DNA from: Desulfurobacterium sp. TC5-1
Lineage (GTDB): Bacteria > Aquificota > Aquificia > Desulfurobacteriales > Desulfurobacteriaceae
Direction: 5' to 3'
Assembly (NCBI RefSeq): GCF_000421485.1
Contig: NZ_ATXC01000001.1
Span: 1-64,000, forward strand
DNA length: 64,000 bases
Part shown: positions 29,336 through 57,142 of the stretch, piece by piece
How positions within the stretch are numbered: position 1 is the first letter of the stretch
Layout: each line of letters begins with the position of its first letter
Translations under genes and position numbers: made by a program
Notes under the pieces: generated by a model
Told to the model about the DNA's origin: nothing
Database searches by the model: none
Seen by the model: the letters and a program-made list of their open reading frames with translations, nothing else

Positions 29336-29671
29336 ATGAAAGTTTTTGGTCCGGAGCCTGAAGGGAAAAGAAAACATACTCCTGTAATTGAAGCACCTGC
29401 AAAGGTAAAGAAAGGTGAATGGTTTGATGTTAAAGTTGTAGTTGGAAAAGACATTGCCCATCCGAACACCAAAGAGCACTGGATACAGTTTATTTCTCTT
29501 TGGGCTGATGATTTTATAGTTGGAAGAGTTACGCTTGAACCTGAAGTTGCTGCGTCAGAAGTTACATTTAAAGTTAAACTTGAAAAGGATGCAGTTTTAA
29601 CAGCTCAGGCTTACTGCAACCTTCACGGTCTCTGGCACAGCGAAGAAGTTAAGGTGGAAGTTGAAGAGTGA
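29336..29671 (+). CDS. Superoxide reductase (neelaredoxin type, class II)
   Basis: This 111-aa enzyme reduces superoxide to hydrogen peroxide without making oxygen, the usual defence of anaerobes. The iron ligands can be read: His14 (KHTP), His42 (AHPN), His48 (EHWI), Cys94 and His97 (YCNLHGLW). It has no N-terminal rubredoxin-like desulforedoxin domain, so it is class II. AAGGAGG precedes the ATG. The peroxide made here could be removed by the peroxiredoxins at 35.1 and 53.8 kb. Confidence 0.95.
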   Translation: MKVFGPEPEGKRKHTPVIEAPAKVKKGEWFDVKVVVGKDIAHPNTKEHWIQFISLWADDFIVGRVTLEPEVAASEVTFKVKLEKDAVLTAQAYCNLHGLWHSEEVKVEVEE

Positions 29672-29698: not shown

Positions 29699-30052
29699 TT
29701 AAAAATGAGAGTAGGATATTTTGATTTTTCCCTTAATGAAAAGTTCAACTGCTTCCTCTATTGTATTTACCTCGGGGGGTATTCTGTAAACCGCAATTTT
29801 CTTCATTAAAAGTTTTAGAAATGGTGTTTCTGCTATCTCTTTTGTAAGCAGTCCTTCAATGCCGTTTTCACAGAGAAGGTCAGCGGCATTTTTTCCTTCC
29901 GTGCAGCCGATGCTGCATCCGCCGCAGGCATAGATATTCTTTATGACTTCTATTTTCCCGGTTTCAGTGTCAACTTTCAAAAATGCTGGAGATGTTCCAA
30001 AGGAATAAAGAAGCTTTTCTCCAGTTATGTCTGTAGGTATTGCGACTATCAT
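29699..30052 (-). CDS. NifX/NifB-type (dinitrogenase iron-molybdenum cofactor) domain protein
   Basis: The 117-aa protein has the small alpha/beta domain of the NifX/NafY/YedF group: IVAIPTDITGEKLLYSFGTSPAFLKVDTETG at the start, DLLCENGIEGLLTKEI in the middle. An added ACGGCSIGC cysteine cluster replaces the plain linker of the family and may hold metal or Fe-S. No nitrogenase genes are present, so a general metal-cofactor or redox role is more likely. AGGAG lies six bases before the ATG. It diverges from csoR, so both share the control region 30053-30219. Confidence 0.78.
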   Translation of the reverse strand: MIVAIPTDITGEKLLYSFGTSPAFLKVDTETGKIEVIKNIYACGGCSIGCTEGKNAADLLCENGIEGLLTKEIAETPFLKLLMKKIAVYRIPPEVNTIEEAVELFIKGKIKISYSHF

Positions 30053-30156: not shown

Positions 30157-30185
30157 TTGACATTTTATTCTGCGGTCATTATACT
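30157..30185 (+). promoter_or_regulatory. Near-consensus promoter of the csoR operon
   Basis: TTGACA (30157-30162), exactly 17 bases, TATACT (30180-30185). The start of transcription would fall at about 30192, inside the adjoining operator. Confidence 0.75.
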
Positions 30186-30201
30186 ATACCCCGTAGGGTA
30201 T
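30186..30201. promoter_or_regulatory. CsoR-family operator
   Basis: ATACCCCGTAGGGTAT is a perfect 6-bp inverted repeat (ATACCC / GGGTAT) around a 4-base centre, the classic form of CsoR/CstR operators. It abuts the -10 box, so bound repressor would block transcription of its own gene and the Fe-S protein gene. Confidence 0.75.
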
Positions 30202-30219
30202 GCAAACTGGAGGAAAAGA

Positions 30220-30498
30220 ATGATAAAATCCGACGTAAACGAGGAAAAGAAAAGAGTAATCCGGCGGTTAAGAAGAATAGAAGGACAGATCAGGGGACTT
30301 CAAAGAATGATAGAAGAGGGGGAACACTGTGAGGATGTTCTCATTCAGCTTTCGGCTGTTAAAAGTGCCATAGAATCTCTTTCTGTTGCAGTTATGGAAT
30401 CCTATTTAAAACACTGTTTCGTTAAAGAAGGCATTATACATCCGGAAAAAAAACAGGAGCTTGAGCAGGCTCTTAAGGTTTTAAAACGTCTAAAGTAA
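30220..30498 (+). CDS. CsoR/CstR-family transcriptional repressor
   Basis: ATG 30220 has GGAGG six bases upstream; the longer frame would cross the promoter and operator. The 92-aa all-helical protein opens with the family stretch RRLRRIEGQIRGLQRMIEEG. The two sensor cysteines are kept, Cys37 and Cys66, 29 apart as in copper CsoR, but the His that binds Cu(I) four residues before the second Cys is Tyr62 here. That is the pattern of persulfide sensors such as CstR rather than copper sensors. It lacks the N-terminal His of RcnR. It is cotranscribed with the 1030-aa Fe-S protein (12-base gap). Confidence 0.88.
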   Translation: MIKSDVNEEKKRVIRRLRRIEGQIRGLQRMIEEGEHCEDVLIQLSAVKSAIESLSVAVMESYLKHCFVKEGIIHPEKKQELEQALKVLKRLK

Positions 30499-30510: not shown

Positions 30511-33500
30511 ATGAGTTACATCTCAGTTCTGAAGGAAACATTTAAGGAAAACTTTGCCAATGACAAATTAAATAAGATTGCCTACGGCCACGACCTTGGC
30601 GAATTCCCGCCTCCGGTAAAGAAAATGATGGGTATCAGGGAACCTGATGCCGTGGTCAGAATTTTGTCTGAGGATGACGCCAGAAAACTTATAGAGCTTT
30701 CTAAAAAATACGGCTTTCATATTGTTCCGAGAGCTAAAGCTTCTTCTGGTTACGGTGGCGTTTTACCCGTTACAGAGGATACCGTTGTTGCTGATCTTGC
30801 GTGGATGAAAGAGATAATAAAAATAGATAAAGAGAATCTCACTGCTACTGTTCAACCTGCAGTTGTCTGGAAGGAGCTTGACGAAGAGCTTAAAGCGAGA
30901 GGTTTAACGTTAAGGCTTTACCCTTCAAGCTATCCTTCTTCCACTGTTGGTGGATGGCTTGCTCAGGGTGGTGCAGGTATCGGTAGCTATGAGTACGGCT
31001 GGTTTAAAGAAAATGTTGTATCTGCGAGAGTGGTTCTGCCTAACGGGGAGGTTCGGGTTTTTGAAGGGCAGGAACTTCTTGATTATGTTGCCGATGCTGA
31101 AGGTATTACAGGAATTATTACAGAGATAACGATTAAAGTAAGGCCTCTTGAAGAAGAGAGAGTAAAGGTAATTGCCTTTGATGATGAAGATGGAATTGGT
31201 AATGCGATTAATTTCCTCTTTGACAATAATGTCCCCGTGTGGAGTGTGTCTTTTATAAACCCTGCGGCATGTCACGTTAAAAATATTTTTCCTCCTCCTG
31301 CGCCCCACGGACATCCAGAGCCCGAGCACAGACCGACACTTCCGGAGAAATACATGCTTATTCTTGCCTATCCTGCTTCAAGAGAGAAAGAGGTAGGTGC
31401 GGCGATTGATTACATGGTTCAAAACTTTAAGGGGGAAGTTCAGTCTGAAGAGATAGCTGAACATGAGTGGGAAGAAAGATTCAAACCTATGAAAGTAAAA
31501 AGACTCGGCCCTTCTGTTGTTCCAGCTGAAGTTGTTCTCCCTGCCAAGAATGTTGCTGAATTCCTCAAAAGGATAAAGAAAGAGATTAAGCATCCTGTTG
31601 TTTTTGAAGGGTTTACGGTTAAAGGAGGCACTGTTATTCTTCTTGGTTTTATACCTCACGACATGAGAAAGAAAGACTTCCAGTTTGTTTCCAGCCTTGG
31701 TGTTACCGTTTCAAAAATAGGGAAATCTCTCGGTGGTAGAGCAATTACTCCAGGTTACTACTTTGCCCATGAAGCTGAGAAGATTTTTGGTAAGGAGAGA
31801 ATCCAGAAACTCAGGAAGTTTAAAAAGCAAATAGACCCTAAATCTCTTATGAACCCGTATAAAGTTGTTCAGGCAGGAAAACCTGCAAAAATAATGGCAC
31901 TTGCAAATGCAACGGAACCGATTACAAAGGTTCTTGCCAACATGTCAAGTAAGTGTGACTTGAAGGAGCATTTTGAGAGTAAAAAGGGATTTCCCGGTGA
32001 CATTCTCTGGTATGCTTACTCATGTACCCAGTGTGGTTACTGTGTTGACAACTGTACTCAGTACGGCGGGTATAAATGGGAATCAACGACACCAAGAAGT
32101 AAATGGATATTCTTAAGAGAGCTTGTAGAGGGAAGACTTGAGGAAAGTCAGGAGCTTGTTGACATATTCCTGGGCTGTACTCTCTGCAACTTCTGTGATA
32201 TTGAGTGTCAGATAGATCTTCCTATTCTTCATGCGTGGGACAGGTTGAGAGAAAAATTTGTTCTTAAAGACAAATTTTCTGCTTTTCCTGCTCTTGAGGT
32301 TATGGCGGCCGGACTTAAAAAGGAGAACAACATCTGGGCGGGTCCTTCAAAAGAGAGAGATAAATGGATGCCGGAAGACCTTAAAAAGTACGTTGAGGAA
32401 AACAGAGGAAAGACAGACATCCTCTACTTTGCAGGATGCACCGCGGCTTATGTTGAGCCGGATGTCGGGATCGGTGCTATGAGACTTATGAAAGATGCGG
32501 GCATTAAGTTTACAAACTTTGGTAAGCAGGAGGCCTGCTGCGGTATTCCGATGGTTGTTGCAGGTAGAATGGATCTTGTTGAGAGAATGTTTGACCACCA
32601 TACAAAACTTGCAAAGGAGATGGGAATAAAAACTATAGTTACTTCCTGTCCTTCCTGCTACAAAACATGGAAGATTTACTATCAGGAAATAGCGGAGAAA
32701 AAGGGAGTTGACTATCCTTTTGAAATAAAGCACTTTACAGAGCTTCTCGCAGATGCTGTTAAGGAAGGAAAGCTTGAATTTGAAAGAAAACCGAAAAATA
32801 TAGATGTTGTTACGTATCATGACACGTGTAAACTCGGCAGGAGTATTCCTATTACAGAGCCGCCGAGGGAACTTCTTAAAGCAGTTCCGGGTATTAAGCT
32901 TGTTGAAATGAAACATAACAGGGATAAAACTCTCTGCTGTGGTGGTGCCGGAACGCTTGTTAAAAATCCTGAAGTTGCTCATAAAATTGGTCTTAAGAAG
33001 CTTAAAGAAGCAACAGATGCTGGAGCGGATACTCTTACGACAATCTGTCCTTGTTGTGAATTTAAGATGAGGGTGGATAGAGACTACCTTGTTGAGAAAG
33101 GAAAGTTACCTGAACTTCAAATTGTTGATCTTGCTGCTCTTCTTGCCGATGCTAAAGGTTACGACCTTAAAAGTCCTGAGCCGTGGGTTAGAGAGCTCTG
33201 GGGGACATTTGAGGCTATGATAGCGATAATGGATCCTCCTGGTATGGCAAGATTTATGGCTGACTATCTTCCTGAGATGATAGATGCGATGCCTGAACCA
33301 TACAGGGGTATGATGAAGTTCATGATGTCTGCACCGATGGCTGTGAGAAAAGCCATGTTTGCAGCTATGAAACCGATGATGCCAAAGCTATTCCCGTCAA
33401 TGCTTGATGAGATGATGCCAAAGCTTCTTCCGATATTCCTTAAGGGTATGGAAGAGAGAATACCGATGCCTGACTTTTTAAAGAAGGAAATGCCGGATTT

Positions 33501-33603
33501 AATGCCGGAAGTAATGAAAAATTACATGTCAGGTCATTTACCTCAGATTATCAAACATTTTATGCCTTACATGGAAAGATACATCATGACAGGTAAAGCT
33601 TAA
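30511..33603 (+). CDS. FAD-linked oxidase / 4Fe-4S / double CCG-domain protein with Met-rich tail
   Basis: The 1030-aa protein is a fusion: FAD_binding_4 domain (about 45-215; PSSYPSSTVGGWLAQGG) and FAD-linked oxidase C domain (to about 470), two 4Fe-4S motifs (CTQCGYCVDNC from Cys505; CTLCNFCDIEC from Cys556), then two CCG domains as in HdrB/GlpC (ACCGIPM at about 676; LCCGGAG at about 809). This resembles GlcD-GlcF or D-lactate dehydrogenase fusions. Residues 900-1030 are an unusual tail with 27 Met in 131 residues plus many Pro and basic residues. No signal peptide or TM segment is seen. Its substrate is unknown; control by a CstR-like repressor suggests sulfur chemistry. Confidence 0.85.
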   Translation: MSYISVLKETFKENFANDKLNKIAYGHDLGEFPPPVKKMMGIREPDAVVRILSEDDARKLIELSKKYGFHIVPRAKASSGYGGVLPVTEDTVVADLAWMKEIIKIDKENLTATVQPAVVWKELDEELKARGLTLRLYPSSYPSSTVGGWLAQGGAGIGSYEYGWFKENVVSARVVLPNGEVRVFEGQELLDYVADAEGITGIITEITIKVRPLEEERVKVIAFDDEDGIGNAINFLFDNNVPVWSVSFINPAACHVKNIFPPPAPHGHPEPEHRPTLPEKYMLILAYPASREKEVGAAIDYMVQNFKGEVQSEEIAEHEWEERFKPMKVKRLGPSVVPAEVVLPAKNVAEFLKRIKKEIKHPVVFEGFTVKGGTVILLGFIPHDMRKKDFQFVSSLGVTVSKIGKSLGGRAITPGYYFAHEAEKIFGKERIQKLRKFKKQIDPKSLMNPYKVVQAGKPAKIMALANATEPITKVLANMSSKCDLKEHFESKKGFPGDILWYAYSCTQCGYCVDNCTQYGGYKWESTTPRSKWIFLRELVEGRLEESQELVDIFLGCTLCNFCDIECQIDLPILHAWDRLREKFVLKDKFSAFPALEVMAAGLKKENNIWAGPSKERDKWMPEDLKKYVEENRGKTDILYFAGCTAAYVEPDVGIGAMRLMKDAGIKFTNFGKQEACCGIPMVVAGRMDLVERMFDHHTKLAKEMGIKTIVTSCPSCYKTWKIYYQEIAEKKGVDYPFEIKHFTELLADAVKEGKLEFERKPKNIDVVTYHDTCKLGRSIPITEPPRELLKAVPGIKLVEMKHNRDKTLCCGGAGTLVKNPEVAHKIGLKKLKEATDAGADTLTTICPCCEFKMRVDRDYLVEKGKLPELQIVDLAALLADAKGYDLKSPEPWVRELWGTFEAMIAIMDPPGMARFMADYLPEMIDAMPEPYRGMMKFMMSAPMAVRKAMFAAMKPMMPKLFPSMLDEMMPKLLPIFLKGMEERIPMPDFLKKEMPDLMPEVMKNYMSGHLPQIIKHFMPYMERYIMTGKA

Positions 33604-33608
33604 TAAAC

Positions 33609-33626
33609 GTCCCCCTATTGGGGGAC
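33609..33626 (+). terminator. Hairpin between the Fe-S protein and porin genes
   Basis: GTCCCCC-TATT-GGGGGAC is a 7-bp perfect stem followed by TTTAAAA. It may partly end the csoR operon while allowing some read-through to the porin gene 30 bases on. Confidence 0.5.
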
Positions 33627-33655: not shown

Positions 33656-34876
33656 ATGAGAAGGAAACTTCTAACACTGCTTGCAGTAGCTGTGGTAGCA
33701 GGGGGAATGACTCAAACAGCATTTGCTACCAACGGTGACGACATGATTGGGGTATCACCTGTATCAAGAGCGATGGGTGGTATCGGTGTAGGTATGCCGA
33801 TATGTGCTACAGATGCTCTCTACAGAAACCCTGCATGGATGTCGAAATCTAAAAATTTTGAAGTTAGCTTTGGTTCAACGCTTTTTATGCCTGATGTAAA
33901 GATAACCGCTACTATGGGAAATGCCACTTTAGCAGATGAAACCAGCAAAGCAGACACATTTGTAATTCCTGAGTTTGCGATTACACAGAGACTTAGTGAT
34001 AAACTCGTTTTAGGTGTTGGTGCTTTTGGTGTTTCTGGTATGGGAACAGATTACAGAAATGCAAATGACCCTGCTGGAGTTTTACAGTCAACAAATACCA
34101 ACTTTTCTTTTATGAGAATGATGCCGGGTATTTCTTATCAGCTAACGGATAATATTGCTCTTGGTGCGGCTGTCCATATGACATGGGGTTCTCTTGATAT
34201 GGGGCAGGGATTTTCTCAGGATTTTGGTATTGGAGCAAGCCTTGGTCTTTCTTACGAAACAAATATGTTTACGGCAGGTTTCTCATATATGTCTCCTGTG
34301 AAAATGACTTACAAAAGGGTGTATGATTCAAATGGTGATGGAACATTTGAAGACATGAAACTTGAGCAGCCTCAGGAAGTTGCCGCTGGTGTCGGTGTTA
34401 GGCCCATTGATGGATTAAAGGTTGGTTTTGATGTTAGATGGATTAACTGGGCTGGTGCTGACGGATACAAACAGTTTGGCTGGAACAATCAGGTTGTTTA
34501 CGCTTTAGGTGCTGAGTATCAGGCAACAGAGGCTTTAACTTTAAGAGCCGGTTTTAACTATGCTAAGAGTCCTCTTGATGATTACACTGCAACAGCAGCT
34601 TCGTTTGCACCGAGTGTAAATATTCCCGATTTTGCTGTTCCTTTCCCGGAATATAATGTTGCTGCTCTTAATGCCCTTGGATTTCCTGCCATTACAGAAA
34701 CGCACCTTACACTTGGTGCGGGATATAAGTTTACCAAGCATTTTGCAGTTAATGTAGCTTACGTTCACGCGTTTGAAGGTGATTTTAAAGTTGAAGATAC
34801 CACTGGTTTGGCTCCAACCTATGAAGCTAAAAATTCTCAGGACAGCGTATCCATGGGTCTCCACTGGAACTTTTAA
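33656..34876 (+). CDS. FadL/OmpP1-family outer-membrane transport protein
   Basis: A signal peptide (MRRKLLTLLAVAVVAGGMTQTAFA) is followed by the FadL-type N-terminal hatch (GVSPVSRAMGGIGVGMP, DALYRNPAWM) and a barrel of alternating strands with repeated KLVLGVGAFGVSG, IDGLKVGFDVRWINW-like elements, ending in Phe (GLHWNF). 406 aa. FadL proteins let hydrophobic compounds cross the outer membrane. GGAGG precedes the ATG. Its place after the csoR operon and near a hydrogenase suggests a substrate used in respiration, possibly a hydrophobic sulfur species; that is inference. Confidence 0.85.
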   Translation: MRRKLLTLLAVAVVAGGMTQTAFATNGDDMIGVSPVSRAMGGIGVGMPICATDALYRNPAWMSKSKNFEVSFGSTLFMPDVKITATMGNATLADETSKADTFVIPEFAITQRLSDKLVLGVGAFGVSGMGTDYRNANDPAGVLQSTNTNFSFMRMMPGISYQLTDNIALGAAVHMTWGSLDMGQGFSQDFGIGASLGLSYETNMFTAGFSYMSPVKMTYKRVYDSNGDGTFEDMKLEQPQEVAAGVGVRPIDGLKVGFDVRWINWAGADGYKQFGWNNQVVYALGAEYQATEALTLRAGFNYAKSPLDDYTATAASFAPSVNIPDFAVPFPEYNVAALNALGFPAITETHLTLGAGYKFTKHFAVNVAYVHAFEGDFKVEDTTGLAPTYEAKNSQDSVSMGLHWNF

Positions 34877-35088: not shown

Positions 35089-35559
35089 TTAATTATCGCT
35101 TAACTTCTTCAGCATTTCTAAAACCTTCTCAACATGTCCTTTGACTCTTACGTTTTTCCATACATGTACCACTTTTCCTTCAGGATCTATTAAATAGGTT
35201 GTTCTTACCACACCGTAATACTCTTTACCGAATCTTTTCTTGAGTTTCCATACTCCGTATTCTTCAATTACTTTATGTTCCGGATCACTTAGAAGTGTTA
35301 CTTTGAGATTTTTCTTCTCTTTAAATTTTCTGTGGCTTTCCACAGAATCGGGACTTATACCTACGACTTCCGCGTTTAGCTTTTTAAATTCGTCTAACTT
35401 TTCAGTGAATCCTTCTGCCTCTTTTGTACATCCTGGTGTATTATCTTTTGGATAAAAATAGAGAACAACCCATTTCCCTTTAAAGTCTTTTAAGCAGGTC
35501 TCTTTTCCCGTGTCGTCTTTTAAGCAAAAACCTGGTGCTATTTTCCCTGGTTCTACCAT
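35089..35559 (-). CDS. bcp: Thioredoxin-dependent peroxiredoxin, Bcp/PrxQ type
   Basis: Bcp reduces peroxides using thioredoxin. The peroxidatic Cys lies in VVLYFYPKDNTPGCTKEAEGF, normal TGA-free coding. Typical later parts are NAEVVGISPDSVESHRKF and RTTYLIDPEGKVVHVWKNV. The second Cys of the PrxQ motif (CTxxxCxF) is absent here, as the text reads GCTKEAEGF, so it is the 1-Cys-motif variant. ATG 35559 has AGGAGG upstream; the longer frame to 35589 does not add family sequence. 156 aa. Confidence 0.93.
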   Translation of the reverse strand: MVEPGKIAPGFCLKDDTGKETCLKDFKGKWVVLYFYPKDNTPGCTKEAEGFTEKLDEFKKLNAEVVGISPDSVESHRKFKEKKNLKVTLLSDPEHKVIEEYGVWKLKKRFGKEYYGVVRTTYLIDPEGKVVHVWKNVRVKGHVEKVLEMLKKLSDN

Positions 35560-35655
35560 TGATTCCTCCTGTGAATTTCGGTTCGTCATCTTAAAATATA
35601 GGTGAATTTTTTAGACGCTGGTAGAATTTTTAAGATGGGTAGTTAAGTTAAAGTG

Positions 35656-35701: not shown

Positions 35702-37309
35702 TTAGCTCTTTTTCCTTCTATAGATGTAATAGACGCCACCTGCAAGGATAATAGGTGTGAATATCATTCCAAGTCCGAACGCTACTGCCGGAAAGTGACC
35801 ATATCCGAGTTCTACGAGCGGGAGTCTGTGCTCTGACCACCATGGACCATGACAGTCAAGACAGTGGAGAGCTTTTTCTTTTGGTAGAACACCATGGTTG
35901 AGCTGGAAGTACCTTGAGATTTCAACAAAGCTTTTTCCATCCCAGTACAGTCCTGCCGCTTTGGCGCCTGCTTTTATAGCTTTATCCCTGTTTCCGGTTG
36001 CAAAAATGATTCCTACCTTTATAGGTATTGGGACATTGTGCTTTGTATCATATGGAACAATGGCATAGTGATATTTAAATGGATAAATTTTTCCATCTTC
36101 CATGTTGCCCACAGGTTCTGTAAAGGAGATTTTTCCTAAAACGCCTTCAACGCCTTCGTCAGGTTTTTCAAGCTTGGCCGGATTGAGCTTGCCGTTAACA
36201 GTTGGAAGATAGAGTTTTCTTTTACCGTTCCACCACGCATATTCTGGAATGATGTTTTCTTTAATCTCCCTCTCCTCTCCCCATTTAACACCTTCAAATT
36301 TAATTTTACGCCAGTCTCTGTGGAGTTCGCTCTTGTGAATTACAGGTATATGACATGTTTGACATGCTATATGTTCTGTATGGAAGTGTTCTATGAACCA
36401 GCCTGTTACGCCTTTATGGGGATGTTTATGGCAATCGGTACATGAAACCGGTTTTGCTTCTCTTGAAAAAGTATCAACGCCGACAGTTCCAACCTTGTGA
36501 TTTCTGAATGCATGACAGTCAACACAGTCCATACCAGCAGCCATGTGGACATCTATATCTTTCGTTACTTTTTTTGTGAAGAGGGCAGATGAAAGATTTG
36601 GACGTTTGACGCCATCTCCACCACCTGAAAAGGCGTGACAGAGAAGGCATACATCTTTGGAAGGTTTTGCCATTATTTTTGATGCCACCTTTTGAAGGTC
36701 AATATTTGCCTCATAGTGCCATGTGCCGTTTTCATTCACGGGAACTTTCAGTCCTGTTTTGACACCTTTTCCACCGCCGTATCCTGCAAGGTGACATACG
36801 AGACAATCAATATCGGCTGCAGCCTCTTCAAACGTCATGTCCGGTCTGCCGGGTTTACCCATGCTGACACCGTGACACATAGAACATCCGCTCATCAGTA
36901 ATTTGCCGTTTATCTTATCTTCGTGTCCCGGCGGTGCTTTTTTAAGCATTACCTTTCCAATCCAGTTGACAGTTTTTGTTGTATTCCAGAAGATAGCCAT
37001 ACAGTAGTCGTTATAGTTGTGCCTTCCGCCGCCTTTAGGGTTGTGCAAGTTCACAACATCCTTTTCGTCATTGCTCATCTGGAAGTGGTAAGAGTGAAAA
37101 ACGTCTTCCACTTCTTTCTTGTGGCACGGAAGGCAGCTTTTTGCCCCTTCGTACTTTGTCCTTCCCAGCATTTTAAAGACTTCTGTGTGGTCTGCGTACC
37201 TGTTCTCTGCATCGGTGAACAGGCTTCTCCTTACAGCTGCGTGCCCGGCACCCGTAATTAACATAAAGCCGGCAGTAATAAGGGTGCACGTCTTTAGGGC
37301 CCTTTTCAT
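35702..37309 (-). CDS. Membrane-anchored octaheme cytochrome c (OTR-like family)
   Basis: A signal peptide (about 1-24), eight CxxCH haem sites (CLPCH from Cys59, CSMCH, CLVCH, CLLCH, CVDCH, CTDCH, CQTCH, CLDCH) and a single C-terminal membrane helix (about 505-530, ending YRRKKS) are seen, 535 aa. Shared features with the octaheme tetrathionate reductase family include GGGDGVKRPNLSSAL, IDVHMAAGMDCVDCH, ACQTCHIP, IPEYAWWNGK and LNHGVLPKEKALHCLDCH. Known relatives reduce tetrathionate, nitrite or hydroxylamine in vitro. The added anchor would fix it to the periplasmic face of the inner membrane, near the hydrogenase encoded divergently. Confidence 0.85.
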   Translation of the reverse strand: MKRALKTCTLITAGFMLITGAGHAAVRRSLFTDAENRYADHTEVFKMLGRTKYEGAKSCLPCHKKEVEDVFHSYHFQMSNDEKDVVNLHNPKGGGRHNYNDYCMAIFWNTTKTVNWIGKVMLKKAPPGHEDKINGKLLMSGCSMCHGVSMGKPGRPDMTFEEAAADIDCLVCHLAGYGGGKGVKTGLKVPVNENGTWHYEANIDLQKVASKIMAKPSKDVCLLCHAFSGGGDGVKRPNLSSALFTKKVTKDIDVHMAAGMDCVDCHAFRNHKVGTVGVDTFSREAKPVSCTDCHKHPHKGVTGWFIEHFHTEHIACQTCHIPVIHKSELHRDWRKIKFEGVKWGEEREIKENIIPEYAWWNGKRKLYLPTVNGKLNPAKLEKPDEGVEGVLGKISFTEPVGNMEDGKIYPFKYHYAIVPYDTKHNVPIPIKVGIIFATGNRDKAIKAGAKAAGLYWDGKSFVEISRYFQLNHGVLPKEKALHCLDCHGPWWSEHRLPLVELGYGHFPAVAFGLGMIFTPIILAGGVYYIYRRKKS

Positions 37310-54458: not shown

Positions 54459-54493
54459 AAAGAGAGATGGGAGCTAAATCCCCATCTCTCTTT
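54459..54493 (+). terminator. Terminator after the peroxiredoxin gene
   Basis: AAAGAGAGATGGG and CCCATCTCTCTTT form a perfect 13-bp stem around a 9-base loop, followed by GCTTTT. Confidence 0.85.
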
Positions 54494-54544
54494 GCTTTTA
54501 AAAGTAAAAGATTTAAGACGACAAAAAACTTTAAGGAGGACAAG

Positions 54545-55918
54545 ATGGACTTTCTCCTGACGTTATCCCGTCTGCAGTTTGCGATGACGGCCTTTTTCCA
54601 TTTTATTTTCGTTCCTCTTACACTTGGCCTTTCAACCCTTATTGCGATTATGCTCACTCTTCACTACAAGACGGGTAAAAAAGTTTATAAAGATATGGCC
54701 AAATTCTGGACAAAACTTTTTGCTATCAACTTTGCCATTGGTGTAGCGACAGGTATTGTTCATGAGTTTGAATTCGGTATGAACTGGTCGGTCTATTCCC
54801 GTTTTGTAGGTGATATTTTTGGTGCACCGCTTGCGTTTGAAGGACTGATGGCGTTCTTCTTAGAGTCAACTTTTATAGGTATTCTTATCTTTGGGTGGGA
54901 TAGAGTGCCCCAAAAAGTTCACCTGTTGGCTGCGTGGCTCACAGCTATTGGCAGTAATATTTCTGCTTTCTGGATTCTTGTTGCTAACGGTTGGATGCAA
55001 CATCCTGTTGGTTCAAAGCTCGTTGAAGGCCTTGCAGGTAAGAAGGCGGTTCTTACAAACTTTGCCAGCATAGTATTTAATCCTGTTGCCGATACAAAGT
55101 TCATGCATACCATAACTGCCGGATTTATTCTTTCTGCAGTTTTTGTTCTCAGTATCAGTGCCTATCACCTGCTCAAAGGAAGGAATATTGAATTGTTCAA
55201 AAAGTCAGCGTTTATTGCGATTATTTTTGGACTGATGGCTTCTGTTGCTGAAATGGGTATTGGCCACGCTCATACAATAGAGGTTGCAAGAGTGCAGCCC
55301 ACCAAGATAGCAGCTGCTGAGGCTTTATGGGAAACGAAAAAAGGTCCTGCCATTGCAATTGCTGCGTGGGCTGACCAGAATGGAAAGCGCAACGTTTTTG
55401 AAATTCCTTCAATTCCAGGAACGCTCAGCATGATGCTGTACAATTCACCGTCTGCTGAGGTGAAAGGTCTTAAAGACCTCCAGAAGGAATTTGAAAAAAT
55501 CTGGGGACCTGGAAACTATATCCCGCCTGTTAACATTACTTTCTGGTCATTCCACCTTATGATATATCTTGGAATGTTCTTTGTCCTTCTATTTGCTGTT
55601 GGACTTCTTAAGTTTAAAAATCTTGAAAATAGCAGGACTTATCTGAAAGTTGCTCTTTTTTCTCTGCCTCTTCCATACATTGCAAACTGGCTTGGATGGG
55701 CAATGGCAGAGGTAGGAAGACAACCGTGGATAGTGTATCCTCTTAACTGGAAGGATAATACTTCCGTTGCACTTAAAACGGCAGAAGCTGTTTCTAAGAT
55801 TACGAACTTTGAGATTCTGGCAAGTTATGTTGTTTTCCTTGTGATATTTACGGGTCTTGCAATTGCAGACTTTTACCTCCTTGCAAAATATGCTTCAAAA
55901 GCACCTGAAAATCATTAA
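54545..55918 (+). CDS. cydA: Cytochrome bd ubiquinol/menaquinol oxidase subunit I
   Basis: CydA holds the three haems and the quinol site of the bd oxidase, which reduces O2 to water with high affinity. Typical parts are LSRLQFAMTAFFHFIFVPLTLGL (haem ligand His), EFGMNWSVYSRFVGDIFGAPLAFEGLMAFFLESTFIGI, GWMQHPVG, MGIGHAHTIEVARVQPTKIAAAEALWET and GRQPWIVYPL. It is 457 aa, with a short Q-loop. ATG 54545 has AAGGAGG upstream. In an anaerobe it would serve mostly to scavenge oxygen. Confidence 0.95.
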   Translation: MDFLLTLSRLQFAMTAFFHFIFVPLTLGLSTLIAIMLTLHYKTGKKVYKDMAKFWTKLFAINFAIGVATGIVHEFEFGMNWSVYSRFVGDIFGAPLAFEGLMAFFLESTFIGILIFGWDRVPQKVHLLAAWLTAIGSNISAFWILVANGWMQHPVGSKLVEGLAGKKAVLTNFASIVFNPVADTKFMHTITAGFILSAVFVLSISAYHLLKGRNIELFKKSAFIAIIFGLMASVAEMGIGHAHTIEVARVQPTKIAAAEALWETKKGPAIAIAAWADQNGKRNVFEIPSIPGTLSMMLYNSPSAEVKGLKDLQKEFEKIWGPGNYIPPVNITFWSFHLMIYLGMFFVLLFAVGLLKFKNLENSRTYLKVALFSLPLPYIANWLGWAMAEVGRQPWIVYPLNWKDNTSVALKTAEAVSKITNFEILASYVVFLVIFTGLAIADFYLLAKYASKAPENH

Positions 55919-55936
55919 TCTGGTGGAGGTGTAGCT

Positions 55937-57142
55937 ATGAATTTTGATTTACAATCAATCTGGTTTCTCCTTGTAGGGGTGCTTATCATTGCCTACCTTG
56001 TAACTGATGGCTTTGACTTTGGGGTTGGTATTCTGCACCCATTTGTTGCTAAGACAGATGTTGAAAGGAGAACGATGCTTAACTCTATCGGTCCTGTTTG
56101 GGACGGAAACGAGGTGTGGCTCATTACTGCAGGTGCGGCAGTTTTTGCTGCATTTCCGGAACTTTACGCTGCACTCTTTAGTTCTCTTTACATAGCGCTT
56201 TTTGTTGTTCTTGTTGCGCTGATTATGAGAGCATGTGCCTTTGAATTTAGAAGCAAAGAGGAAAATCCTTCCTGGAGGAACTTCTGGGACTGGATGGTTT
56301 TCTTTGGAAGCGCCGCGCCGGCTCTCCTGGTTGGTGTTGCGATAGGTAACGTTTTAGGAGGCCTTCCTGTTATTAACAGTCTTGCAAAAGGAGATTCTCT
56401 TTCAGGTTTTGTTTACGCTGAAAAGTTCCCGGTTAGCTTTTTAAATCTCATTAATCCCTTTACAACACACGGTCTTTACGGACTAATTGTTGGTGTAACG
56501 ACGTTCCTTTTCTTTACGCTTCACGGCGTTTCTTGGCTCCTGTGGAAAACAGAAGGAACGGTAGCAGAAAGAGCAAAATCAATAGCTACAAAACTCTGGT
56601 TTGCTTTTGTCATTTTCTACGTTCTATGTCTTGGTTTCGGTTACACTATTTCTTTCAGGATAGGTGATGCTTCAAAGCTTGCGTTTTTGGGTCTTCCACA
56701 GAATCTTATAGAGGCCATTAAGCCTCATATAAACAACGGTGTTGTTGAGCATGCACTCTTTAGAAGTATGCCTCTTGAGATTGTAATGATTCTTGCAGCT
56801 GTTGTGTGTGCGGTTCTTTACTTCCTATCTCTTCAAAAGTCTGACGGAAAGAGAGCTTTCCTCTTTTCGGCTTTAACGGTTGCTTTTGCAACACTCGGTG
56901 CAGCTATCGGTGCTTATCCGTTTATGGTTCCATCATCTCTTGGTGTTGAAAACAGCATTACTGTTTACAATGCTGCTTCAAGTACACTAACTCTCACCGT
57001 TATGCTTATAGCAGCGCTCATTTTCGTGCCCATTGTTATTGCCTATCAGGTTTGGGCATACAGAGTCTTCCTCTTTAAGATTTCACCGGAAAGCCTTGAG
57101 AGAGAGCTTAAGGCTGAAGGCGAGGAGGCAGAACTTTACTAA
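55937..57142 (+). CDS. cydB: Cytochrome bd oxidase subunit II
   Basis: CydB is the second core subunit, 401 aa with about eight membrane segments. It opens WFLLVGVLIIAYLVTDGFDFGVGILHPF and continues IGPVWDGNEVWLITAGAAVFAAFPELYA, the family signature, with PSSLGVENSITVYNAASS near the end. It follows cydA by 18 bases and is followed by a cydX-type gene. Confidence 0.95.
   Translation: MNFDLQSIWFLLVGVLIIAYLVTDGFDFGVGILHPFVAKTDVERRTMLNSIGPVWDGNEVWLITAGAAVFAAFPELYAALFSSLYIALFVVLVALIMRACAFEFRSKEENPSWRNFWDWMVFFGSAAPALLVGVAIGNVLGGLPVINSLAKGDSLSGFVYAEKFPVSFLNLINPFTTHGLYGLIVGVTTFLFFTLHGVSWLLWKTEGTVAERAKSIATKLWFAFVIFYVLCLGFGYTISFRIGDASKLAFLGLPQNLIEAIKPHINNGVVEHALFRSMPLEIVMILAAVVCAVLYFLSLQKSDGKRAFLFSALTVAFATLGAAIGAYPFMVPSSLGVENSITVYNAASSTLTLTVMLIAALIFVPIVIAYQVWAYRVFLFKISPESLERELKAEGEEAELY

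Follow-up and report, generated by a model that had tools for sequence, protein, structure and literature searches.

A conserved promoter–operator switch with a Tyr-type CsoR-family repressor, probably of the sulfur-sensor side, in Desulfurobacterium sp. TC5-1

A conserved regulatory switch, which is probably autoregulated and whose CsoR-family repressor probably falls on the sulfur-sensor side, was found in the window, that is, in the whole 64,000-nucleotide stretch analysed (contig NZ_ATXC01000001.1, positions 1 to 64,000). It is composed of a promoter, a putative operator over the expected transcription start, a small repressor gene and, closely behind it, the gene for an FAD/Fe-S/CCG oxidoreductase, which is the likely target of the repressor. 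The type of switch is already known, and what is new here is the combination of residue (Tyr62 of the repressor) and target.

The repressor and its key residues

30220..30498, + strand: gene for a CsoR-family repressor of 92 amino acids with Cys37, Tyr62 and Cys66 (PF02583, E 3.5e-27)

The PF02583 profile gave 95.1 bits on this protein (curated cut-off 22.8), which is the sole CsoR-family (PF02583) member of the genome. In the initial annotation the feature was placed at 30157-30498; its end was confirmed, while the open reading frame starts at 30220 and position 30157 falls in the -35 box of the promoter. As was read there, Cys37 and Cys66 are kept with the CsoR spacing, 29 residues apart, and the place of the Cu(I)-ligand His, four residues before Cys66, is taken by Tyr62. 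The likeness to CstR that was drawn from this replacement did not hold, because the CstR references have Asn. The proteins of two further species of the genus showed 89% (G125) and 70% (G124) identity to the repressor, and all three species carry Cys37/Tyr62/Cys66 instead of the Cys-His-Cys ligand set of copper CsoR.

An initial alignment of 103 rows (two copies of the query, one under L001, plus two genus members, 98 others and one truncated row) served to compare residue 62, which was Tyr in the genus and His in the 98 others, within a set picked by similarity and mostly actinobacterial. After the set was widened with loci from plasmid and phage-collection records, Asn was observed at this place in 7 loci, later Gly in 2, and Tyr in 8 out of 8 Deinococcota homologues (L112, L153-L159); 8 further loci on viral contigs were all of the His type. 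Locus L111 of the Asn type is the annotated cstR of Staphylococcus, located beside cstA, cstB and TauE, and locus L221 of the Gly type lies beside TauE, rhodanese and an MBL-fold gene. Asn is shared by all 7 Asn-type loci and the solved chain 7mq1, whereas the repressor has Tyr; this chain, labelled CsoR in its file and presumably CstR, is the best solved match of the Staphylococcus CstR (E 8e-18). Rhodanese, TauE, YeeE or MBL-fold genes were present near 5 of the 8 Deinococcota Tyr-type loci, and none of these sulfur genes is annotated near the other 3.

Promoter and operator

30157..30185, + strand: promoter, TTGACA (30157-30162), 17 nt, TATACT (30180-30185), with 11/12 consensus positions
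30186..30201, no strand assigned: putative operator ATACCCCGTAGGGTAT with a TAC-N8-GTA core, over the expected transcription start, 16/16 columns identical in three species
30209..30213, + strand: ribosome-binding site GGAGG, read from the sequence and conserved in the three-species alignment

Both the near-consensus promoter and the perfect palindrome joined to it, as originally described, stood up to an alignment of the source genome (G000) with G125 and G124, in which the -35 and -10 boxes are unchanged and the palindrome abuts TATACT directly. The -10 box and the operator together form a 22-bp block with 22/22 identical columns. Elsewhere in the alignment, identical columns amounted to 42/102 upstream, 8/17 in the spacer and 8/18 behind the operator. 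At the upstream and spacer rates the chance of 22/22 is 3e-9 to 6e-8, when the columns are treated as independent and for a stretch chosen after the fact. Identity over 22 bp in three species despite diverged upstream DNA argues that the site is more than a chance palindrome, and the case for its proposed function as operator rests on position and conservation.

Within the window ATACCCCGTAGGGTAT has a single exact match and near-matches are at chance level (18 found, 14.8 expected); in the region, 15 promoter-like sites were counted and shuffles gave 15.5, hence no enrichment. For ATACCC-N4-GGGTAT, about 0.08 exact chance matches are expected genome-wide. A divergent promoter over the operator (30206-30178, - strand) was also considered, and was rejected since, in the alignment as read by eye, G125 and G124 do not preserve its -35.

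Spacing of the operator core

Copper CsoR sites are described as TAC-X9-GTA in the accessible part of PMC3902906; the operator in the present case has 8 bases between TAC and GTA. The spacing of TACC...GGTA was then counted within 3 kb of the repressor gene at 140 loci:

His type, 118 loci: N9 106, N8 5
Asn type, 7 loci: N9 1, N8 16
Gly type, 2 loci: N9 0, N8 6
Query genus (Tyr), 3 loci: N9 0, N8 5
Deinococcota Tyr type, 8 loci: N9 2, N8 1
No readable residue, 2 loci: N9 1, N8 0

The N8 sites of the query genus are the three operators plus one each in G000 and G125 inside a neighbouring gene, and no TACC...GGTA was seen within 3 kb at 32 His-type and 5 Deinococcota loci. The share of N8 among the N8 and N9 sites was 22/23 in the Asn and Gly types, whereas N9 made up 106/111 in the His types; when the His and Asn types were compared locus by locus at an earlier stage, Fisher p was 4.5e-8, although the contrast tracks one split of the tree and the loci are not independent. 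The Deinococcota Tyr types do not follow the contrast cleanly. The site of ScCsoR, a sulfane-sulfur repressor, is given as 16 bp with ATACC-n6-GGTAT (PMC7533328, available text), which corresponds to N8. The spacing of the core might separate sulfur sensors and metal sensors in a large part of the CsoR family, a contrast that was not found stated in a literature search of limited reach. If upheld by wider sampling, it would allow proteins annotated as 'metal-sensitive transcriptional regulator' to be sorted into sulfur and metal sensors from DNA only.

Position in the CsoR family tree

Three maximum-likelihood trees were constructed with rows hand-picked from the sampled loci. In the first tree a single starred set contained the query genus and every other His-less row (19/61 rows, 97/93). 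With residue 62 masked, the same His-less set was recovered in the second tree (19/58 rows, 98/95), from which L114, L187 and L188 were dropped, and a His-less starred set was again obtained in the third (20/56 rows, 100/97), to which Gly-type rows were added and from which some rows were left out. This side of the tree includes CstR (Asn), the Streptomyces-type sulfane-sulfur regulator (Gly) and the Deinococcota rhodanese-cluster regulators (Tyr).

Grouping with copper CsoR, the outcome named beforehand as contrary to a sulfur sensor, did not occur in the trees, but the AU tests failed to exclude it significantly: p was 0.052 when the query genus was forced with the Aquificota His types and 0.117 when forced with the actinobacterial His types, neither significant in tests on 93 columns with low power. 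On vertical descent from an Aquificota CsoR, the value of 0.052 gives no decision either way. The query genus and the Deinococcota Tyr types formed one group in the unmasked tree (94/48); this group was lost when residue 62 was masked, so that Tyr need not have a single origin. AU p was 0.417 with these two held together, and 0.491 with the query genus placed with the Asn types (masked set). Taken together, the sequence data speak for a sulfur or dithiol sensor rather than a copper sensor.

Downstream genes and their distribution

30511..33603, + strand: gene for a 1030-aa FAD_binding_4/FAD-oxidase_C/4Fe-4S/CCG oxidoreductase, the likely target, 12 bases behind the repressor gene
33609..33626, + strand: intergenic RNA hairpin between the oxidoreductase and FadL-type genes, folding in all three species
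33656..34876, + strand: gene for a FadL/TodX-type outer-membrane protein (PF03349), possible third gene of the unit
35702..37309, - strand: gene for an octaheme c-type cytochrome, a neighbour outside the unit (TIGR04315, 197 bits, below the cut-off of 375)

The oxidoreductase carries two CCG domains, and its CCG half matches structures of HdrB (heterodisulfide reductase, best E 6e-14). The FAD half matches D-lactate dehydrogenases and related oxidases, with a resemblance to glycolate oxidases. A Met-rich C-terminal tail of about 150 residues (33148-33600) is conserved and gave no Pfam match better than E 0.019. Full-length oxidoreductase was detected in 3 of the 22 family genomes, the PF02583 repressor in the same 3, and the two genes are always adjacent in these carriers; at E 1e-30 the oxidoreductase matched in 3/136 Aquificota genomes. 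The initial annotation had overlooked this co-inherited gene. The genome G126, of the same genus and 85% complete, lacks the repressor, a full-length oxidoreductase and the cytochrome. None of 294 matching plasmid records covered 80% of the oxidoreductase, and a defence library gave 0 hits for either the repressor or the oxidoreductase.

The intergenic hairpin (also at L029 12274-12307) is kept in structure, with different letters in G124. A second operator at 33609-33626 had been considered, and was rejected in favour of an RNA hairpin because of these other letters in G124. The conserved hairpin in front of the FadL-type gene makes its cotranscription uncertain. Close orthologues of the FadL-type protein (71-79%) were found in G124 and G125 alone. 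The octaheme cytochrome is present in 3/22 family genomes with the same distribution as the repressor and the oxidoreductase, and TIGR04315, which it matches below cut-off, is a tetrathionate-reductase family model. One in-frame TAA was noted in the G125 copy of the cytochrome gene (G125:C6:28238-29839).

Comparison with known regulators

The repressor resembles CstR, the persulfide sensor of Staphylococcus (L111), in its fold, in two Cys 29 residues apart and in the lack of a metal-ligand His. The CstR site TACCTATAAGGGTA has an N8 core as in this operator, and the CstR regulon is suggested to be one operon in S. aureus, as here (PMC5480029, accessible part). CstR differs in having Asn for Tyr and shows 36% identity to the repressor; it adjoins cstA, cstB and TauE, whereas the repressor adjoins the FAD/Fe-S oxidoreductase. 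ScCsoR of Streptomyces coelicolor shares Cys37, Cys66, the N8 site and autoregulation, and its Cys37 is persulfidated with both Cys needed, by the part of PMC7533328 at hand; in difference, its plasmid relative L221 has Gly at position 62 and the neighbours named above. The Deinococcota plasmid regulators share Cys/Tyr/Cys in 8/8 cases and the same side of the tree, but often lie beside rhodanese, TauE, YeeE and MBL-fold genes. TTHA1953 of Thermus, perhaps a Tyr-type relative, is described with Cys39 and Cys68 and as controlling sulfur oxidation; it differs in binding TACNNTACNNNNGTANNGTA and in acting on distant genes. An inter-monomer disulfide is reported to weaken its binding, an effect that metals lack under reducing conditions (PMC10318464). 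Copper CsoR (Geobacillus 4m1p, Streptomyces lividans 4adz and the Aquificota His types) shares the fold and the Cys pair, and its sites are likewise TAC/GTA palindromes with G-tracts. It differs in the Cu(I)-ligand His at the place of Tyr, and in an operator core one base longer, and the genome analysed here has no heavy-metal P-type ATPase for such a regulator to control.

Proposed mechanism and alternatives

In our judgement, a reasonably well-favoured explanation is that the repressor belongs to the His-less, sulfur-sensing branch of the family and works as an autoregulated switch. The reduced repressor, with Cys37 and Cys66 as thiols, would bind as thiol-form tetramers to the 14-bp TAC-N8-GTA operator at the start site and block the promoter. 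Cys37 would be modified by an oxidised sulfur species such as persulfide or polysulfide, and would probably be linked to Cys66 of the neighbouring subunit. The modified repressor would then leave the DNA, and the genes for the repressor and the HdrB-like FAD/Fe-S oxidoreductase would be transcribed, with the FadL-type porin gene perhaps derepressed along with them. Binding, effector, cross-link and transcription as one unit are presumed here; for DNA binding, effector and chemistry the models are CstR, YrkD (PMC9918477), ScCsoR and TTHA1953 (PMC10318464), as far as these are covered in the accessible texts. The oxidoreductase itself, we infer, may handle the sensed compound. The sulfur-responsive switch proposed in the initial annotation was supported in part: an autoregulated switch of the sulfur-sensor side agrees with the trees, with the operator spacing, with a genome that lacks a heavy-metal P-type ATPase and with the sulfur genes around most Tyr-type relatives, and the effector stays a presumption. 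Strict co-inheritance with the oxidoreductase, whose CCG half matches HdrB, also speaks for a sulfur sensor. Against it stand the AU tests that fail to reject His-type placements, a Tyr that matches neither the Asn of CstR nor the Gly type, the lack of recognised sulfur genes beside the operon, the Deinococcota loci (3/8 without sulfur genes, mixed spacing) and the dependence of the spacing contrast on a single split of the tree. In addition, TTHA1953, a possible relative, was unreleased by NaHS according to the portion of PMC10318464 available.

The main rival, credible although rather improbable in our estimate, is a general dithiol redox sensor, in which oxidants such as oxygen, peroxide or Cu(II) would form a Cys37-Cys66 intersubunit disulfide and the operon would serve oxidative-stress or electron-balance handling. 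It draws on TTHA1953, which loses DNA affinity via disulfide-linked dimers upon Cu(II) or H2O2 (PMC10318464, accessible part), and on the presence in the window of desulfoferrodoxin (29336-29671) together with a peroxiredoxin-like ORF (35089-35589) and cytochrome-bd-like ORFs (54467-57142), these latter named by eye. However, CstR and ScCsoR, which among the well-characterised relatives stand closest in tree side and spacing, sense sulfane sulfur as far as their available descriptions go, and the neighbouring stress genes are without an operator copy outside coding sequence. A copper-sensing CsoR drifted at residue 62 is highly unlikely. The best solved-structure matches of the repressor are indeed copper CsoRs (E 1.6e-16, against 3.8e-11 for the CstR-like 7mq1), and His-type placements are left possible by the AU tests; but Tyr, which all three species retain, is not among the usual Cu(I) ligands, the operator is N8, and the trees put the repressor among His-less rows. 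Moreover, no match to the heavy-metal P-type ATPase model (TIGR01525) was detected in the 99.77% complete genome, the model being positive in 14/14 controls. Equally slight chances are given to a sensor of an electrophile or organic acid tied to the substrate of the enzyme. This would suit the glycolate- and D-lactate-oxidase-like FAD half, and FrmR proves that the fold is able to sense formaldehyde (PMC5016687, accessible part); the FrmR reference, however, is without the second Cys and sits on a long branch that is not part of the query's tree set, and the FrmR NCBIfam model gave 65.2 bits on the repressor against a cut-off of 133.

Should the sulfur-sensing switch be correct, a further and rather doubtful extension is that a Tyr-type sulfane-sulfur repressor governs sulfur respiration instead of sulfide detoxification, via a genus-specific module of sulfur or polysulfide reduction. 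The module would comprise the oxidoreductase, an HdrB-like flavo-Fe-S enzyme, and a porin of FadL type serving hydrophobic sulfur; the octaheme cytochrome lies beside them. Sulfur respiration by the source organism is itself presumed. How Desulfurobacterium thermolithotrophum reduces thiosulfate is described as unknown in PMC12724263, and a sulfur-triggered promoter before an uncharacterised flavo-Fe-S enzyme would offer a candidate gene for this question.

Direct regulon and genome content

A genome search for further operator copies, as had been suggested, found none outside coding sequence. Exact TACCC-N4-GGGTA occurs once genome-wide, as the operator. Allowing one mismatch gave 17 sites in total, the operator and 16 others, as compared with 21 for the reversed control pattern. 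Of the 16, the 13 beyond the window are every one within ORFs of at least 180 nt, and the 3 in the window (18827, 28336 and 29768) are in ORFs as well. A single exact operator and the location of all 16 near-sites in ORFs suggest that the direct regulon is one promoter; a wider regulon was rejected. For TACC-N6-GGTA, the three genomes gave 22, 18 and 23 sites (control 33, 13 and 22). A site with the letters of the Staphylococcus cst site (G000:C1:917058) was set aside as coding and absent among the G124 and G125 matches.

Genes for rhodanese, TauE, PDO or an SQR-type protein could not be recognised beside the operon, and cstA/cstB, rhodanese, TauE and sqr were not found adjacent to the repressor in G000, G124 and G125. 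The genome has three rhodaneses, none near the operon. Shared neighbours in G000, G124 and G125 are the genes for desulfoferrodoxin, the NifX-like protein, the FAD/CCG oxidoreductase and FadL.

Several minor observations were made in the same regions. The NifX-like (Nitro_FeMo-Co) protein, with a CGGCSIGC motif, is encoded divergently at 29699-30052 (- strand) and in the same place in G124 and G125. Inside its gene lies an N8 operator-like site, TACCTCGGGGGGTA, at 29768-29781. In G125, TACCTCTGGAGGTA was found about 420 bp upstream of the operator, with no counterpart found at that place in G124. The window opens (1-830) in the final part of a 23S rRNA gene, with a 5S rRNA gene also there.
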